DNA of 64,000 nt from Nitrospira sp. KM1 (GTDB lineage Bacteria > Nitrospirota > Nitrospiria > Nitrospirales > Nitrospiraceae). Position 1 is the stretch's first letter, and each line of letters opens with the position of its first letter. The stretch is from the NCBI RefSeq assembly GCF_011405515.1, contig NZ_AP022671.1, forward strand, positions 3,534,001-3,598,000, read 5' to 3'. The position numbers and the translations under genes were made by a program. A model generated the notes under the pieces. The model had not been told where the DNA came from and made no database searches. It saw only the letters and a list, made by a program, of their open reading frames with translations. Shown here piece after piece: positions 30,228 through 38,277 of this stretch.

Positions 30228-32441
30228 TCAATTCGCCCAGAGGCGCCGGTACCATGTGCGTTGTTCCGGCAGTACCACGGCCGTGAGATTCATGTTTTTG
30301 CGGATGCCGCCGATATCCCGCCCGGTCAAGGTCGCCAGCGTCTGAGCTTCCCGCTCGTGGCGTTCGTGTAGGTGCTGTCGGTACGCGGTTGCAGCCGGAC
30401 ACTCATCCGCGCCCGTCCAGGGATGGCGCAACACATACCGAGCTTGAAAGTTGGATCGATCCGACGTTTCCTGAAAAATGAGATCTTCGGGAAAGTGGGC
30501 GGCATCATAGCGCACGTGCAGCCGCGTCAGGAAGACAGGCTGTACCATGGGCATGCCTTTGCCCGTTCGTCCGGTGGTGTCCTGCCAGAACACCCCGAGG
30601 CTCCGCAGTTCATCGGTGGAGAGCGGATCGGCAGCACAGGGATCGCACCAGTTCATATCCCACGCATACTCCAAGAATACGCCGCGCTTGCTCTCACGCC
30701 GTACTTGTTGGCTGAACATATCTCTGTAAAAATCCCCGAACGTGTCCTTTACAAAGAGCGGTAGTTCCTGCGCATCGGGCAAGCGCACGGTACGGTAATT
30801 TGTCGTTTCCACTCGCCCCTGTTTCGTCAGAAAGTAGGCGAAGAGTTCCTGCGGTCCGTCGGCGTTGACGGTCCCGAGGCGGATTGGCAGGACGAATTTA
30901 GGTGATTCAAAGGCGATCTGGAGCGGACGGAGATGCGTCAGGCCGAGCTTGGCCTGTTCTCCCAGATTGACTTTGGCAACGAAGAATTTCAGGTTTTGTT
31001 TCAGGTAGCTGTGTAAGACGGCTGAAGCGCCGTGAGGGATGCGATAGCCGTTTTCGGTGAGCCAGGTCTCAAGCCCCGCACTCTCCTTTCCCGACAAGAT
31101 GAGAATGTCGTATTCGCCGACGGTGTACCGGGCCTCGACCGTCACTCCGAGTGCACGATCACGCTCTCGGGTGGGGGATGCGGCAGGGGCCATGCTCTTC
31201 ATGGCATCCATCTTGCGTTCGAACAACTCATAGCGTGTGCAGGGGTTCTCGTCGAAGTATTCGACCAGCCGAGGGGCCGAATAGTCGGCCAGATGTTTGA
31301 TGACGGCTGGATTGCCCACATGAATCTGGTCCTTCTCCAAGACGCTCGGGACAGGCACGACCAGCGCGAATTCTTTCACGTCTCCACGAAAATCATTGGC
31401 CATGGTGAGCACGGTTTTGTCGTCATGGCGTGCGACGACGACCTCCGAGGCCTTGTTGAATAGCTTGGTATCGGCTTTGCCGACATAGAACCCACAAAAC
31501 GCCCAAGCAGGTGCGCTCCAGAACAGAAGACCGGAGCCGAACGTCATAAAACAGAGAATGGCTTTCGTCATAAGCACCTCCGTTGATGGTGAGGAAAGCG
31601 GGACAGCGAATGTCGGATTGATTGCGCCTGCCGATGGACGCGACCAGTCGTATCGCGAGCCAGGCAACAGACGATCAATGAACGGCACAAGAGGACAGCA
31701 GGCGATTAAGCCCCAGAGCAATCCATTGGAACGGTATAAGACAAATTGAACCGAAAGCGCGCTGACGGCCACGAGCAGTGAAAATATGATCCGGCCGGCG
31801 CGGGAATCAGGCGTCGTCTTGGGGTCGGTGATCATGAAAAACGAAAAGATGAGCAGAGTTGAGCTTTCGATCTGATGCAGCGGGATCGTGAGGGGATCGC
31901 CAAGCCACAGGGCGCGTGTTATCAGCAGTCCGGCGTAGAATCCCAGGAAAGACAGCGTCACGTCCGCCCGCACGGCTCGTGCGATCACGAGACTGCCCAT
32001 ACAGGCGATGAGAAGTCCGAGCCAGGCCACCTGCCCCCATTGGCCCGGCGAAATCCAGCCGATGCCGGCCGCGAGCACGACGATCAATGCAAAATTTGTC
32101 GGATTGAAGATGTGCTTGCCCTGCCGCCGGATGAGAAACTTGCTCGCAATAGCGACGCATGAGGCGAAGGCGACGGCAGGAAGATCGTTCGTGCGGAGGA
32201 AGATGCAAAGCCCGACGGCCGAGACGATCGCGCTCAACGGATCGAACGAGGGCAGCTTATACCATCGAGTGCCGGTATATTGCGTGAGGAGGGTGACGGT
32301 GAATGTAACGGCGATCTGAGCGATCGATACGTCGAAGTGCAGCCACAGAAGACCATACAGGAGCAGCGTCCCAAGGCTGGCGATTTGATAGATGCGGGGG
32401 TCGAAGGAAGAAAACCTGGACTTGATCTGATCGAGCGTCAT
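30228..32441 (-). CDS. in-frame fusion of an RnfD/UnbU-like membrane protein and a DUF2330 protein
   Basis: 737 residues reading through without a stop. Part 1 (residues 1 to about 290) is a polytopic RnfD/NqrB-like (UnbU) domain: IYQIASLGTLLLYGLLWL, GTRWYKLPSFDPLSAIVS, KHIFNPTNFALIVVLAA, SFFMITDPKTTPDS and IACCPLVPFIDRLLP. I see no flavinylation motif. Part 2 (about 290-737) starts with its own signal peptide, MTKAILCFMTFGSGLLFWSA then PAWAFCGFYVG, followed by a DUF2330 domain with ANDFRGDVKEFALVVPVP and LHVRYDAAHFPEDLIFQ. An internal ATG at 31571 has GGAGG five bases upstream, so DUF2330 may also be made alone. ATG 32441 is preferred over 32453 for its AGGTGCAGG. Confidence 0.72.
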   Translation of the reverse strand: MTLDQIKSRFSSFDPRIYQIASLGTLLLYGLLWLHFDVSIAQIAVTFTVTLLTQYTGTRWYKLPSFDPLSAIVSAVGLCIFLRTNDLPAVAFASCVAIASKFLIRRQGKHIFNPTNFALIVVLAAGIGWISPGQWGQVAWLGLLIACMGSLVIARAVRADVTLSFLGFYAGLLITRALWLGDPLTIPLHQIESSTLLIFSFFMITDPKTTPDSRAGRIIFSLLVAVSALSVQFVLYRSNGLLWGLIACCPLVPFIDRLLPGSRYDWSRPSAGAINPTFAVPLSSPSTEVLMTKAILCFMTFGSGLLFWSAPAWAFCGFYVGKADTKLFNKASEVVVARHDDKTVLTMANDFRGDVKEFALVVPVPSVLEKDQIHVGNPAVIKHLADYSAPRLVEYFDENPCTRYELFERKMDAMKSMAPAASPTRERDRALGVTVEARYTVGEYDILILSGKESAGLETWLTENGYRIPHGASAVLHSYLKQNLKFFVAKVNLGEQAKLGLTHLRPLQIAFESPKFVLPIRLGTVNADGPQELFAYFLTKQGRVETTNYRTVRLPDAQELPLFVKDTFGDFYRDMFSQQVRRESKRGVFLEYAWDMNWCDPCAADPLSTDELRSLGVFWQDTTGRTGKGMPMVQPVFLTRLHVRYDAAHFPEDLIFQETSDRSNFQARYVLRHPWTGADECPAATAYRQHLHERHEREAQTLATLTGRDIGGIRKNMNLTAVVLPEQRTWYRRLWAN
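31569..31581 (-). promoter_or_regulatory. internal ribosome binding site and ATG at the DUF2330 start
   Basis: On the minus strand GGAGG (31581-31577) precedes an ATG (31571-31569) by five bases, inside the RnfD-like/DUF2330 open frame. The codons after it encode a signal peptide that ends AWA-FC. The site is what a separate DUF2330 gene would need. The upstream frame has no stop before it. Confidence 0.6.
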
Positions 32442-32771
32442 CCTGCACCTCATGAATAGATGGCCTATTCACGGTATGGCGCCAGATGAGAGATCCTTTC
32501 AGGCGAAAAGTAGGTCTGGCAGAGAGCGCGACCTCTCTCACCTCCTGGAGCGACCCTTCGAGACTCGCCGCGGCGGAAACCTTCAGAAATTCCCTCGCGC
32601 TAGCATAAAAAAGATCATCATTGCCTGCTATGAAGACAAAACTCATGCGAGCTTCTGAAAGAAGGAATCCAAGGCACGATTGACCTCATATCCAAACGTG
32701 TGCGAGCGGCATCTCAATAAACATAATCTGAACGAGTTGCAGAACTGTTGATCCGATAAATAAACATTCTG
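32442..32771. other. 330-bp intergenic region upstream of the RnfD-DUF2330 gene
   Basis: Lies between the stop of the LigB-type ligase (32772) and the start of the RnfD-DUF2330 fusion, both on the minus strand. It is visibly more AT-rich than the genes around it, with short homopolymer runs near 32600-32620 and 32755-32770. I see no ORF with a ribosome site, no RNA-like fold and no repeat. It most likely carries the promoter of the fusion gene; I cannot point to a convincing -10. Confidence 0.4.
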
Positions 32772-34307
32772 CTAATTCCGCTGTGCGCGGAACAATTCCG
32801 ACACCGTCTGAATCGTGTCCGCTTGGTCGGGCGTCTTGTCCGGGCGGTAGCGTTTGACTCTGGCGAAGCGCAGCGCGAGTCCGGCCGGGTAGCGCGGCGA
32901 TTCTTGGATGTCGCTGAACGCAATTTCCACGACCATCTGGTGTTTCACGAAGACCGTGTGCTCTTCCCTGTGCGTCTCGAGCGATAGGAGTTGTTCCGTC
33001 TGCTGCCGCAGCATCTCGTCGGTCAAACCCTTGAAGGTTTTGCCAAGCATCACGAAATGCCCGCTCGATGGATCGCGCGCGCCCAGGTGCAGATTCGAGA
33101 GCCAGCCTTCGCGGCGGCCGTTGCCCCACTCGGCGGCGAGGATGACGAGGTCGAGCGAAGTCGCTTCCTTCAGCTTCAGCCAATGGTATCCGCGTTGACC
33201 CGCCACGTAAGGGGCAGTTGGAGATTTGGCCATGACGCCTTCATGCCCCGCCGCCAACGACTGAGCGAGGAATCGCCGGGCTTCTTCGGGTTGTGAAGTG
33301 ACGACGTGCGGGATCAATTCGGCTGGTGTCATGGTGGCCAAAGCGCGAAGGCGTTCTTCGTACGATTGGGTCAAGAGTGAGCTGCCGTCCAGGTATAATG
33401 CATCGAATGCAAAAGGCGAGAGTGGTATCGATTCCCGCATCGCGGCCACGTCCTTGATGCGGCCGAGGCGTCGCATCGTCGTCTGAAACGGCTGCGGACG
33501 CCCGTCAGGTCTCAACGCGATCGCTTCGCCATCGAGGACCGCTTCACGCACCGGCAGGTTCCTGGCCCATTCGACGATCTCCGGGAGCCGGCCGGTGATG
33601 TCCTGCAATTGGCGGGTGAAGACGCGCACGTCATCGCCGCCTTTGTGCACTTGGACGCGTGCTCCGTCCAGCTTGTACTCGAAAACCGCACGATCCAGCC
33701 GCTGCAGCGCTTCGTCCACGTCCTCGGCGCTGTTGGCCAACATCGGTGCAACCGGAACGAATAGACGCATCGAGAAGCGCGCGAGACCGGCGGATTGTTC
33801 TTCCAGCGCCGCCTGCGCGAGGTCTCCGATGTTCGGAGCGAACATAAACGCTTGCCGCACCTCGGCGGCAGGCAGGCCGGCCGCAGCGGCGATGGCGTCC
33901 AGCAACACCGCTTCCAGGGCACCTTGTCTCACCTCACCGATGAGCAATTGCGACAGGAACGTACGTTCCTGCGGGTTGGCCCGGCTGAATAGGTTGCTTA
34001 GCGCGAGAATTCGCCGATCCATTGAACCGGCGCCTCGCTCGGCTGCCAAGACATCCATCAACCGGTCCACGTCCGAAAGCATGAGCGGCTCGCCTGAGGC
34101 GGGCGCGTCGTGCATCGCCTTCTGAATGACGCTCCACCCGATGCCGATCTTGCCTTGAGGGAGGGAACCAGTGAGATACAGCGCGGCCAGGACGGCCTCG
34201 CGTCCATTGACTTGGCCAAGACATTCCGCCAGCAACCGGATCTTTTCAGATTTCTTGGTCGTGGCGCGGACGCGTTGGACCGTTTCGACCAGTCGGGCGA
34301 GTTGCAT
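32772..34307 (-). CDS. ATP-dependent DNA ligase, LigB type
   Basis: 511 residues. An N-terminal helical DNA-binding domain (about 1-180) is followed by the nucleotidyltransferase core: motif I FEYKLDGARVQVH with the adenylated lysine at K212, VREAVLDGEAIAL (motif III), GHEGVMAKSPTAPYVAGQRG (IV), WLKLK (V) and an OB-fold with VVEIAFSDIQESPRYPAGLA and LRFARVKRYRPD. This order and length match Mycobacterium LigB-type ligases (family knowledge), not NHEJ LigD. It should seal nicks in repair. Its start follows the pyruvate kinase stop by 63 bp, so the two may be co-transcribed. Confidence 0.9.
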   Translation of the reverse strand: MQLARLVETVQRVRATTKKSEKIRLLAECLGQVNGREAVLAALYLTGSLPQGKIGIGWSVIQKAMHDAPASGEPLMLSDVDRLMDVLAAERGAGSMDRRILALSNLFSRANPQERTFLSQLLIGEVRQGALEAVLLDAIAAAAGLPAAEVRQAFMFAPNIGDLAQAALEEQSAGLARFSMRLFVPVAPMLANSAEDVDEALQRLDRAVFEYKLDGARVQVHKGGDDVRVFTRQLQDITGRLPEIVEWARNLPVREAVLDGEAIALRPDGRPQPFQTTMRRLGRIKDVAAMRESIPLSPFAFDALYLDGSSLLTQSYEERLRALATMTPAELIPHVVTSQPEEARRFLAQSLAAGHEGVMAKSPTAPYVAGQRGYHWLKLKEATSLDLVILAAEWGNGRREGWLSNLHLGARDPSSGHFVMLGKTFKGLTDEMLRQQTEQLLSLETHREEHTVFVKHQMVVEIAFSDIQESPRYPAGLALRFARVKRYRPDKTPDQADTIQTVSELFRAQRN

Positions 34308-34370: not shown

Positions 34371-35828
34371 TCAGCCCACTTCCTGCAGCTTGATCAGATT
34401 GGTGCCGCCCGGTCTGCCGATGTGGGTGCCGGATAGAATGACGATGCGTTCTCCGGTCTTGATGAGGCCTTCGGTTTTCAGGCGCCGTTCCGCTTCGAGC
34501 AGCCGCTCGTCTGTCTGTGCGATCTCCCGCATCGTATGGGGCATGACGCCCCAATAGAGCGCCATCTGGCGGCGGATCGGCTCGAACGGCGTGAAGGCAA
34601 TGATGGGGGCGGCGGGACGCTGCTTGGATATCAGACGCGCGGTCATTCCTAACTCGCTAAACGCCACGATCGCGCTGGCCGAGATTGCCGTGGCGGCCGA
34701 CGACGCTGCGGTGCAGATCGCTTCCGGGCAGGACATCGACACTACGTCGGCGTGCCGTCTCTGGAGGACTCCCGGCTCCGGCCCCTCTTCAGCCGCCCGG
34801 ATGATGCGGTCCATGACCTCGACGGTTTCGACCGGATGCTGCCCGATCGCCGTTTCAGCCGACAGCATGACGGCGTCGGTGCCGTCGAAGACCGCATTGG
34901 CGACATCCGAGGCTTCGGCCCTGGTTGGACGCAAATGCCGCGTCATCGATTCCAACATCTGTGTGGCGGTGATGACGAGACGTCGCCGCCGGTTCGCTTC
35001 TCCGATGATGCGCTTTTGAAGGCGGGGCACTGCTTCCGCGCCCATTTCGACTCCCAGATCGCCGCGGGCGATCATCACGCCTTCCGCTTCGTCCAGGATG
35101 GCGGTGAGGCAGGAAACGGCTTCGGACCGTTCGATCTTGGCGATGATGGGAATATTTCCGCCGCATTCTGCAACCAGTTTTTTCACTGCCACGATGTCCT
35201 CCGGCCCCCGGACGAATGAGAGAGCCAGGTAATCCACTTCCTGTGCGACGCCGAACCGGATGTCTTCGCGATCTTTGTCGGTCAGGGTCGGGGCGCTGAC
35301 ACGGGTGCCGGGGAGATTCATGCCCTTATGCGAAGTCAGCGTGCCGCCGACGATGACGGAGCATTCGACTGAGCCTCCGGAGATCCGATCAACTCTCAAT
35401 TCGATCAGCCCGTCGTCGATCAGAACCCGCGCCCCGGGCTGCACATCGCGGGCCAAATAGGGATAGGCGACAGGAATCTCGACGCGCGCCGAGCGAGTGG
35501 TCGACTGCGCACCCAACTGGCCGCCTGCACGAGCGAGCGGGGTCTGGAGAACCAGCGACTGGCCCTCAGCAATGCCGATTCCTCCTTCGGGAAGCGTCCC
35601 GAGGCGAATGCGAGGTCCCTGAAGATCCTGAATGATGGCGACTGCCCGTTGTTGCCGCTCGGCGGCCTGCCGGATGCTCTTGATGGCCGCCTCATGGGAT
35701 TCGTGCGTCCCGTGTGAAAAGTTAAGGCGCGCCGCATCCATGCCGCGCGCAATAAGCCGATCCAATATGGGCGAGCCATCGCTGGCGGGTCCGACGGTGC
35801 AGACGATTTTGGCTTTTCGCATCTTCAT
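34371..35828 (-). CDS. pyk: pyruvate kinase
   Basis: 485 residues: KAKIVCTVGPAS, MDAARLNFSHG, NLPGTRVSAPTLTDKDRED, FVRGPEDI, IPIIAKIERSEAVS (catalytic lysine), GVMIARGDLGVEM, RRLVITATQMLESM, PTRAEASDVANAVFDGTDAV and MLSAETAIGQHPVETV. All hallmarks of a complete type pyruvate kinase with an intact C-terminal domain. It makes pyruvate and ATP from phosphoenolpyruvate. The start is one of two ATGs (35828 or 35822); the open frame upstream to 35921 is in the promoter region. It diverges from the phosphatase-PFK fusion gene across 118 bp. Confidence 0.93.
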   Translation of the reverse strand: MKMRKAKIVCTVGPASDGSPILDRLIARGMDAARLNFSHGTHESHEAAIKSIRQAAERQQRAVAIIQDLQGPRIRLGTLPEGGIGIAEGQSLVLQTPLARAGGQLGAQSTTRSARVEIPVAYPYLARDVQPGARVLIDDGLIELRVDRISGGSVECSVIVGGTLTSHKGMNLPGTRVSAPTLTDKDREDIRFGVAQEVDYLALSFVRGPEDIVAVKKLVAECGGNIPIIAKIERSEAVSCLTAILDEAEGVMIARGDLGVEMGAEAVPRLQKRIIGEANRRRRLVITATQMLESMTRHLRPTRAEASDVANAVFDGTDAVMLSAETAIGQHPVETVEVMDRIIRAAEEGPEPGVLQRRHADVVSMSCPEAICTAASSAATAISASAIVAFSELGMTARLISKQRPAAPIIAFTPFEPIRRQMALYWGVMPHTMREIAQTDERLLEAERRLKTEGLIKTGERIVILSGTHIGRPGGTNLIKLQEVG

Positions 35829-35845
35829 TTCCCGGCGTTCGGCCC

Positions 35846-35874
35846 TTGACAAGAATTCTTGAACACTCAATGAT
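35846..35874 (+). promoter_or_regulatory. sigma-70-like promoter with a palindrome in its spacer, facing the PFK fusion gene
   Basis: TTGACA (35846-35851) and AATGAT (35869-35874) are separated by 17 bp, a good -35/-10 layout directed at the gene at 35947. The spacer contains the perfect 12-bp palindrome CAAGAATTCTTG (35850-35861), which partly overlaps the -35 box. That is where a repressor operator would act. A second TTGACA lies at 35878 but has a poor -10. The pyruvate kinase gene starts at 35828 on the other strand, so a regulator bound here could affect both. Confidence 0.45.
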
Positions 35875-35946: not shown

Positions 35947-38277
35947 ATGAAGCCGGCGAGTGATTCTCTCGACTTTGTGACGATCGACGGTCTGCTGGTC
36001 TACGGAGAGCAGTTCTCGCAACGGCAGCCGCAAGATGGCATCTTGTTGCCGGGCGTTTCCGCTCGTGAGGGGAACCGGTCTGAACGCGCCCGTTCTGCCA
36101 TGAGCAAGATCGTGGCGTTCGTGCAGGGTGCCCGAAGCGGATTTTCAGGAGCCGACGTCTACCGAAAGGCCCGGCAGGCTATTCTTGATGAAACGTGTGC
36201 AGGCGATGCGCTCGTATTTTATGCGGCTTGGAACAAGCTCCTTGCCGAAGGGCAGCTCCAGCCTCTGTTGCGCGCGCCCATTGGATCCGTGCAGAAACCT
36301 CTCCACCGCCGTCCGGTGGCCATCGTGCCGAGGTCGCAACTCACCCCGCAACTGGCCGAGGGGCGTATTGTGCTCGATCTGGGAGACGAGAGGTTCTGGC
36401 TGTTACCGCGTGATCTCGCCGGCCGCACGCTGCTGTTTACCATGCGGCACGGTATTTCACAGGTGGAAAGCAAGACTCACCGCGTCGGCCGGCGTTTGAT
36501 GAATCAATTGGACGGGCAACGGGGAGTACCGCGGGCGGACGCCGTCGGTACGGCGCTGGCGCGCATGCTGGGCGTAGTCGGCCAGCAATTGGATTTTCTC
36601 CACCTCTCCAACTATCTCGACCCCCGCACGTTTCTCCATTTCGTCAGCGTGAGTCCAAACACGCGCCAACTCTTCGACCGCGTGAGCGCCGCGTTGACGA
36701 AAGATGGGCCTCTCACACATGAGCCGGTGCAGGTGTCGGCCCTCGAGTCGTCGGATTTTGGCTGGATCACCGGCATCGAGAAAACGGTCGAGCTGCAGGA
36801 ACTGGCCAAGGCGCTGGGGGTTGAGACGGCCATTGCCAAACGGCTGATCAAGGATCCGCTGTACTGCTATCCCGGCGGGAATTCGTTTTTCGATCTTTAT
36901 GTAGATGTGATCGACGGGTTGCACAAACTGGGTGAGGCCAATCGAGGGAAGGTCGCCTGCCTCTATACCCATAGCTCCACCCTGCGCGCACTGATGATTT
37001 ATCTGGATCCCCGTCCGTTTCACGAGGCCTTCACCGAGTTCAGCGATTATAAGGAGAGTCAGGACAATGTCGTCCTCCTCACCGTGGAGAACGGCCGATT
37101 GTCCGGGTATTCCACCGCCGTCGGGTTATCAGAGCGTGAAAAGGCCACCCGTGATTCATGGACCGTCGTGGAACGTGTGCGGAAGGACCGGGTGAATTTG
37201 AAACCGGGCCAGATCAAACGGATCGTCGCCCTGGTGTCCGGAGGAGATTTTGCCGGCGCAGGCGCCGCGTTGAAAGAGCTGCGGGCAACGGGAAAGCGGT
37301 TCGGCCTCGACGTTCACTTCGTCCGGCACGGATTTCTTGGCCTGGCCAACAATTGGATCGAACCGGTGAGTGAAGACGACACGCGCGGCATGAGCAGCCA
37401 TGCGAGCAGTCCCATCGGCAGCAGCCGCTTCGAGGATTTCAAAGACGAACAGGTTCAGCAGGCCGCCATCCGCAATCTCGAACGGTTCTTGACGGATGCG
37501 GCGCTCGTCGTCTTGGGAGGGGACGGCAGCCTGCGAGGCGCCCGCGCCATTTACGAAGCCTTCGGTGTTCAGGTCGTTGGCCTTCCCGGCACCATTGATA
37601 ACAATATCGAGGGCACGACCTCGTTAGGCTTCCATTCGGCCATTGCCCTGGCTGACCAGTCGATCGAGTCTCTCAAAGCCACCAGCTCTGCCATGGGAAG
37701 TGTCTTCTTTGTCGAGGTCATGGGAGCCGGATCAGGTCACTTGGCGCTGGCCTGCGCGTACCAGGCGAGAGCGGAGGGACTGCTTGTCAACGAACATCCG
37801 GATCCGGATGCCTATATCGACGAAGCCATTCTCGGCACATTGAAGCGGACACTGGGAGTGCCAAACAAGAGTCACTTGTTCGTCGTGGCCGAGCGCACTC
37901 CGCACCGCCATCATCGCGAAGGCGGTGTGCATGGGCTTGTCGATTACGTCGCCGGTGTCATTGCCGAGTGGCCTGAACGGCACGCGCGCCCGGGACAATA
38001 CCCGTTGACGCTGGCGACCAAGGCGACGATCCTCGGGCACACGCTGCGTGGCGCGCCTCCCACGCCGGATGATAAGGCGATCGGACAGCACCTGGCCTAC
38101 GAAACCGTGCGCCGTCTCGTGGAATGCCCCGAAGATGTTGTTGGCTGCATGTTGGCGTATCGTGAACGTGGCATCATCGAACCGGTGGCCCTTCATGCGG
38201 TCACATCCAAACAATTTGATTGGGACGTATTCGCGAGAATGCACGGCAGCGAAAAAGTCGTAAAGCCGGTTTTATGA
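35947..38277 (+). CDS. FBPase-2-like histidine phosphatase fused to 6-phosphofructokinase
   Basis: 776 residues, three parts. Residues 1-155 have no family I know; about 55-110 looks like a helical, winged-helix-like module. Residues 160-395 are a histidine phosphatase: LLFTMRHG (R167, H168), DPLYCYPGGNSFFDLY resembling the bisphosphatase half of eukaryotic PFK-2/FBPase-2, and the second catalytic His at YTHSST (H342). Residues 420-776 are a PfkA-type kinase: ALVSGGDFAGA, LGGDGSLRGA (GDGS indicates ATP rather than PPi), LPGTIDNN (catalytic D551), FVVAE. Departures: MGR is MGA (592-594) and GFDTA is GFHSA. Normal bacterial PFKs are about 320-360 residues and lack the phosphatase. Confidence 0.82.
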   Translation: MKPASDSLDFVTIDGLLVYGEQFSQRQPQDGILLPGVSAREGNRSERARSAMSKIVAFVQGARSGFSGADVYRKARQAILDETCAGDALVFYAAWNKLLAEGQLQPLLRAPIGSVQKPLHRRPVAIVPRSQLTPQLAEGRIVLDLGDERFWLLPRDLAGRTLLFTMRHGISQVESKTHRVGRRLMNQLDGQRGVPRADAVGTALARMLGVVGQQLDFLHLSNYLDPRTFLHFVSVSPNTRQLFDRVSAALTKDGPLTHEPVQVSALESSDFGWITGIEKTVELQELAKALGVETAIAKRLIKDPLYCYPGGNSFFDLYVDVIDGLHKLGEANRGKVACLYTHSSTLRALMIYLDPRPFHEAFTEFSDYKESQDNVVLLTVENGRLSGYSTAVGLSEREKATRDSWTVVERVRKDRVNLKPGQIKRIVALVSGGDFAGAGAALKELRATGKRFGLDVHFVRHGFLGLANNWIEPVSEDDTRGMSSHASSPIGSSRFEDFKDEQVQQAAIRNLERFLTDAALVVLGGDGSLRGARAIYEAFGVQVVGLPGTIDNNIEGTTSLGFHSAIALADQSIESLKATSSAMGSVFFVEVMGAGSGHLALACAYQARAEGLLVNEHPDPDAYIDEAILGTLKRTLGVPNKSHLFVVAERTPHRHHREGGVHGLVDYVAGVIAEWPERHARPGQYPLTLATKATILGHTLRGAPPTPDDKAIGQHLAYETVRRLVECPEDVVGCMLAYRERGIIEPVALHAVTSKQFDWDVFARMHGSEKVVKPVL

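Follow-up and report, generated by a model that had tools for sequence, protein, structure and literature searches.

One uninterrupted open reading frame of a Nitrospira chromosome joins a histidine-phosphatase fold to a phosphofructokinase (PFK) domain of the PfkA superfamily. The window, i.e., the whole stretch of 64,000 nucleotides that was analysed, belongs to a complete 4.5-Mb genome of the Nitrospira family, and the closest named relatives by matches to the fused protein are Nitrospira sp. assemblies and N. moscoviensis. Judged by sequence, the fusion is intact and conserved, the residues of kinase chemistry are kept, the fructose 6-phosphate (F6P) phosphate site and the effector site are partly rewritten, and linkage to pyruvate kinase (pyk) is seen. 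The best explanation, to which we give somewhat less than an even chance, is a neofunctionalised, lineage-specific and probably regulated glycolytic enzyme of the ATP-type PfkA kind in Nitrospiria, with a sensor arm derived from a phosphatase. The novelty lies in the fusion architecture. Since both component domains come from known superfamilies, the fusion is not a new category. Literature searches found no description of a PFK joined to a histidine phosphatase, and a 2025 review of the PFK superfamily lists none (PMC12203962). The predicted order of the protein is as follows.

35947..38277, + strand: whole fused gene, 776 aa, ATG start, no internal stop, full-length homologues in 76 loci
35947..36321, + strand: N-terminal helical module, residues 1-125, five helices (AF2 secondary structure)
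36322..37131, + strand: predicted histidine-phosphatase-fold domain, residues 126-395 (AF2 and Foldseek, Pfam His_Phos_1 in homologues, hhalign)
37132..37209, + strand: linker, residues 396-421, low-confidence helix in the AF2 model
37210..38274, + strand: PfkA-superfamily domain, residues 422-776 (Pfam PFK, PDB PFK matches, one clade on a long stem)

The N-terminal module and the phosphatase fold

The joining of the two domains in one chain, proposed in an earlier note made from the DNA letters alone, is confirmed by the intact frame and by Foldseek and Pfam matches. The same note called the N-terminal module unknown. Residues 1-125 of the window protein and its homologues gave no Pfam match, and no family was assigned. 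They are also the least conserved part: their mean pairwise identity is 54%, while the other parts reach 74% and 78%.

In the window protein, His_Phos_1 gives a sub-threshold Pfam match at 301-360 (E 0.09), and 68 of 69 homologues match the family (best E 7.8e-8). Alignment of the phosphatase half to five bona fide histidine phosphatases with hhalign gave E 3.4e-4. The structural match sought for this part was found with an AF2 model of residues 1-426, built from a 69-sequence alignment (pLDDT 84, pTM 0.85). Foldseek matched it to 179 PDB chains at E <= 1e-3, and the top ones were histidine phosphatases, namely PFKFB3 (E 4.8e-8), dPGM/BPGM, TIGAR and PhoE (TM 0.72), at probability 1.00. An AF2 model of the whole chain, poor in its PFK part, served only for a confirmatory structure search. 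According to the model, the phosphatase half is a branch-1 histidine-phosphatase fold. Its proposed likeness to FBPase-2 stands in part: PFKFB is best by E-value in Foldseek and the only match, though a weak one (E 1.2), of a PDB profile search, but PhoE and glucosyl-3-phosphoglycerate phosphatase reach higher TM-scores. Closeness to FBPase-2 in particular is, in these model comparisons, not diagnostic. The motifs RHG and CYPGGNS and the second histidine were present as previously read.

36445..36453, + strand: RHG motif 167-169, putative phospho-accepting His168, invariant in 110 sequences
36664..36666, + strand: R240, where reference members have the second catalytic Arg (S236..R240 in register with their S58..R62)
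36748..36756, + strand: S268-S/Q269-D270, Ser268 at the general-acid Glu position, D270 invariant (sequence alignments)
36865..36885, + strand: CYPGGNS 307-313, in register with YRYPGGES of PFKFB2
36970..36972, + strand: second histidine His342, invariant in 110 sequences

The fusion shares the fold, the RHG loop and the second His with branch-1 histidine phosphatases such as PhoE/CobC, dPGM and TIGAR. It differs from them by an insertion between helix 1 and strand 2, by the attached PFK, and by a catalytic set that appears incomplete in the alignments, with Ser for the acid Glu and a second Arg that is not conserved. The residues R12, H13, G14, R62, E85 and H145 (L100 numbering), common to the five reference histidine phosphatases, correspond by profile alignment and motif spacing to R167, H168, G169, R240, S268 and H342. 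The general-acid position is occupied by Ser in 109 of 110 sequences (register from hhalign and an L..G spacing). At position 240, 61 of the 110 homologues have Arg, 26 Glu, 11 Thr and 7 Lys, and Ser also occurs; the register here comes from the S..R spacing and predicted secondary structure, and hhalign placed that stretch differently. Invariant D270, R347, R356, K369 and Q372 align as a candidate conserved pocket, and the domain is conserved like an enzyme domain (74% mean identity, one third of the columns invariant). SixA-type phosphohistidine phosphatases do not need the acid Glu, and some phosphatase activity on an easy leaving group is therefore possible. Moreover, the window protein's phosphatase could be active because R240 is present there.

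The kinase domain

Pfam PFK (PF00365) matches residues 425-722 with E 2.7e-55 and 188 bits (cut-off 30.9), and the cut-off of the NCBIfam equivalog TIGR02482 is missed by far (176 vs 371 bits). The kinase half was aligned with E. coli PfkA (L099), 20 separate PFKs of the phylum and the fused proteins. Compared to E. coli PfkA, of the same Pfam family, the fold and the GDGS and PGTID motifs are shared, and the equivalents of D103, D127, R72, G104, G124, M169, E222, H249 and R252 are kept in the fused proteins. However, identity is about 29%, the fusion has 420 extra N-terminal residues and a new His loop, Arg162, Arg171, Arg243 and Asp129 are replaced, and the effector site is altered. The following features were located by alignment.

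37519..37530, + strand: GDGS 525-528, Asp526 = D103, Gly527 = G104, ATP-type donor signature kept
37585..37605, + strand: PGTIDNN 547-553, predicted catalytic base Asp551 (= D127) and Gly548 (= G124) kept, Asn553 in place of D129
37699..37701, + strand: Ser585 at the Arg162 position, Ser/Thr in the aligned fused proteins
37720..37728, + strand: MGA 592-594, Ala at the Arg171 position
37891..37914, + strand: ERTPHRHH 649-656, putative sugar-contacting Glu649 (= E222), then a His cluster (H653, H655, H656)
38020..38049, + strand: KATILGHTLR 692-701, Lys692 at the Arg243 position, His698 = H249, Arg701 = R252

The earlier assignment to the ATP type from GDGS agrees with the alignment, in which D526, G527 and G548 are kept; the donor residues G527 and G548 mark the domain, by their identity, as an ATP-type PFK. 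D551, D526 and R494 (= D127, D103 and R72) are present in all fused sequences compared. The positions that anchor the F6P phosphate, Arg162, Arg243, His249 and Arg252, read Ser/Thr, Lys, His and Arg in the fusion, i.e., the full set is not present. In the R state of PFK, Arg162 of the neighbouring subunit reaches over and binds the phosphate of F6P (PMC12203962). Arg171 is replaced by Ala and Arg243 by Lys in all fused proteins aligned, and Asp129 by Asn in every one compared but the deep homologue L152, which keeps Asp. Two departures from the family had been pointed out before. MGA, the Arg171 replacement, is real, invariant in a 25-sequence alignment, and the one of the two that matters; GFHSA is unremarkable, as E. 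coli PfkA itself reads GFFTA. The loss of Arg162, the changes at Arg243 and Asp129, and the His cluster, which is absent from canonical PFKs, had been missed. Newly invariant residues of this half are H598, R608, H643, H653, H656 and R533.

The classical effector-site positions, in E. coli PfkA numbering, are changed as well: Lys443 stands in place of R21, Lys577 of R154, Arg608 of G185, Val of R211 and Asn of K213. Single replacements occur elsewhere. Arg171 is also lost in L117, and Gly stands at the Arg162 position in L123, L149 and L150, PFKs of some Nitrospirota whose Gly104/Lys124 together with this Gly gives a trypanosome/plant-like ATP-PFK pattern. The loss of Arg162 was considered as proof of inactivity and rejected, since some other PFK groups have Gly there. 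Among the sequences compared, the combined replacement of Arg162, Arg171 and Arg243 appears specific to the fused clade.

Distribution, neighbourhood and glycolytic context

The same domain order recurs in 76 loci from a single-sequence scan of 84,980 species genomes, a scan that finds close relatives only. A sequencing artefact or frame join is thereby ruled out. The titles of these loci read Nitrospira, Nitrospirae or Nitrospirota, with one exception mislabelled 'Nitrosospira'. Dozens of independent assemblies of the class Nitrospiria carry the whole chain, at 64-82% identity. In a sample of the phylum, it was present throughout the levels of family and order and in several further families of that class, and the other classes yielded separate PFKs only, without the N-terminal half. 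Some loci of the scan and the phylum sample may be the same species, so the counts are not independent events. The N-terminal half was matched in 91 of 136 near-complete Nitrospiria genomes, about a third being without it. All full-length matches lie in frames of 764-887 aa that include the PFK; what departs from this are short fragments of about 100-184 aa, of which at least some lie at contig ends. A tblastn search of plasmids with the N-terminal half gave no match. For what was searched, the fusion is restricted to Nitrospiria.

In the tree, 12 fused PFK domains form one clade (100/100). Its stem measures 4.8 changes per column, compared to 0.07-0.33 within the clade, and the exact sister group is uncertain because the stem is very long (the program warned of this). 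Compared over one set of families, fused PFK domains share 74% identity, more than the 68% among separate canonical PFKs. This long change followed by strong constraint looks like the pattern of neofunctionalisation. An artefact or a recent accidental fusion without function has nothing in its favour beyond the unusual domain order and is refuted by the dozens of independent assemblies and by the conservation in the fusion alignment, where 158 columns of the PFK part and 90 of the phosphatase part are invariant; its probability is practically nil.

34371..35831, - strand: pyruvate kinase, divergent neighbour (NCBIfam TIGR01064, E 7e-159)
35846..35874, + strand: sigma-70-like promoter match TTGACA-17-AATGAT between pyk and the fusion, a consensus match only

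As previously described, the gene faces pyruvate kinase, with about 115 bp between the two head-to-head genes, and this neighbour is conserved. Of the 84 loci whose upstream sequence was long enough, 36 have it within 600 bp in divergent orientation, and it lies downstream in others (co-directional in about 18, convergent in 4), i.e., it is linked in at least three arrangements. That the linkage recurs while the gene order differs points towards a role of the fusion in glycolysis, and pyruvate kinase is a neighbour of bacterial PfkA as well. It is not adjacent in a comammox-like group (L009-L035) and in distal families. In family f2 (L134-L139), the fusion adjoins a different pyruvate kinase that shares only 37-41% identity with that of the window, which suggests, at the level of sequence, a replacement at a conserved locus.

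Other neighbours were also noted. An ATP-dependent DNA ligase of the archaeal/eukaryotic type, with N, middle and C domains, adjoins pyruvate kinase (32772-34307, - strand). A 741-aa frame at 30228-32453 (- strand) joins an NQR2/RnfD-like membrane domain to DUF2330, possibly another unusual fusion, and several relatives also have a DUF2330-containing neighbour close to the fused PFK.

No other PfkA was found in the host genome, and no PfkB-type PFK among its three PF00294 members. These resemble, by reading of their sequences, HldE, an adenosine-kinase-like protein, which adjoins a purine phosphorylase, and ThiD. A class I FBPase, adjoining a class I aldolase, is encoded, as are a separate dPGM and genes of the transaldolase and glycogen-phosphorylase families; class II and class V FBPases are absent from this genome. 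The phosphatase domain was considered as a missing FBPase or phosphoglycerate mutase. Neither need exists, because the class I FBPase and the dPGM are separately encoded, so the domain need not supply a missing activity. A sedoheptulose-phosphate bypass for a missing transaldolase was likewise rejected, the transaldolase family being present.

The idea that Nitrospiraceae have no PFK besides the fusion proved wrong. Unlike the host, most other complete genomes of the family add a PPi-type PFK, some have only that type and some have none. The relatives' separate PPi-type PFKs carry D104/K124. The sets thus comprise the fusion only, the fusion with the PPi-type, the PPi-type only and none (G145, G097, G191 and others), and the differences are possibly linked to organic-carbon use. 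Nitrospira without phosphofructokinase have been reported (PMC9239080). Furthermore, the five distal families of the class that were sampled carry a separate PFK (canonical ATP-type or PPi-type) in addition to the fusion. Since these families and most complete Nitrospiraceae have another PFK, the fusion need not be the glycolytic one.

Possible roles of the fusion

In the proposed mechanism, the C-terminal domain would phosphorylate a sugar phosphate, most likely F6P, in the glycolytic direction, with Lys692, His698, Arg701 and the new His loop making up a rebuilt F6P site. The phosphatase-fold domain would mainly bind a phosphorylated metabolite via the kept RHG/His342 pocket and would set the activity of the kinase domain, replacing the altered ADP/PEP effector site. 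Glycolytic flux may run through the fusion while stored glycogen is burned, and the pyruvate kinase of the same locus may take the second irreversible step. Several points count against this mechanism: a second PFK in many relatives, about a third of the class genomes without the fusion, groups in which pyk is not adjacent, and R240 in the window protein.

A different substrate could follow from the joint loss of Arg162, Arg171 and Arg243. It is rather unlikely that the kinase acts on another ketose or ketose phosphate which the phosphatase domain also attacks or senses, although the new invariant residues H598, R608, H643, H653, H656 and R533, the very long stem and the coexisting canonical ATP-PFK or PPi-PFK, which would cover F6P in many genomes, are in keeping with it. 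The equivalents of H249, R252 and E222 are kept, however, the linkage to pyruvate kinase is conserved and the host has no other PFK. Loss of Arg162 alone does not change the substrate, since L149, L150 and L123 have Gly there, and the transaldolase-family gene leaves no obvious need for a sedoheptulose-phosphate kinase. In another scenario, the PFK domain has only a regulatory and no catalytic function, as in the C-terminal half of eukaryotic PFK, and the whole chain serves as a metabolite sensor. The regulatory half of human liver PFK reads MGG and TISNN in the alignment, and thus shares the loss of Arg171 and the Asn at D129, but it has lost the catalytic D127, whereas every fused homologue retains both this residue and the Mg-binding D103. 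This scenario is quite improbable.

The earlier note also proposed that one chain both makes and removes a sugar phosphate. Such a bifunctional enzyme would catalyse opposite reactions on one sugar (bis)phosphate, e.g., as PFK and FBPase, following the logic of PFK-2/FBPase-2 with a different kinase. The invariant RHG and His342, PFKFB3 as the best fold match, R240 in the window protein and the candidate pocket speak for it. Nonetheless, the Ser at the acid position, the loss of the second Arg in about 45% of homologues, and the separate FBPase and dPGM of the host make it unlikely, and the proposal as worded was not supported. A PFK with a sensor arm is preferred as the best reading, and the make-and-break enzyme is less likely.

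Both PFKFB and the fusion carry a sugar-phosphate kinase and a histidine phosphatase in one chain. In PFKFB, the kinase is a P-loop enzyme of another superfamily and N-terminal, whereas the PfkA kinase of the fusion (PF00365) comes second, and Pfam found no 6PF2K domain in it. The resemblance is at most a convergent architecture. The yeast PFK likewise has, in front of its PfkA-superfamily part, an additional domain derived from an enzyme, but that domain is glyoxalase-I-like and unrelated, and the yeast enzyme is a tandem duplicate (PMC12203962). It is very improbable that the fusion is an independent bacterial counterpart of PFK-2/FBPase-2, making and removing, or sensing, a regulatory sugar bisphosphate. 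If true, it would switch Nitrospira between CO2-driven gluconeogenesis and glycogen breakdown and could, for example, act on the PPi-type PFK that most relatives carry.

The bacterial PFKs of known structure represent just three phyla (PMC12203962). The natural replacements at Arg162, Arg171 and Arg243 amount to a natural experiment on substrate binding and regulation in PFK. Nitrospira, to which the comammox organisms belong, are major oxidisers of nitrite, and their glycolysis is annotated as complete (PMC8115632). This annotation leans on genes such as the fused PFK. As the enzyme assigned to the committed step has a new architecture and an apparently rewritten active site, the annotation of a complete glycolysis in these organisms is an assumption.
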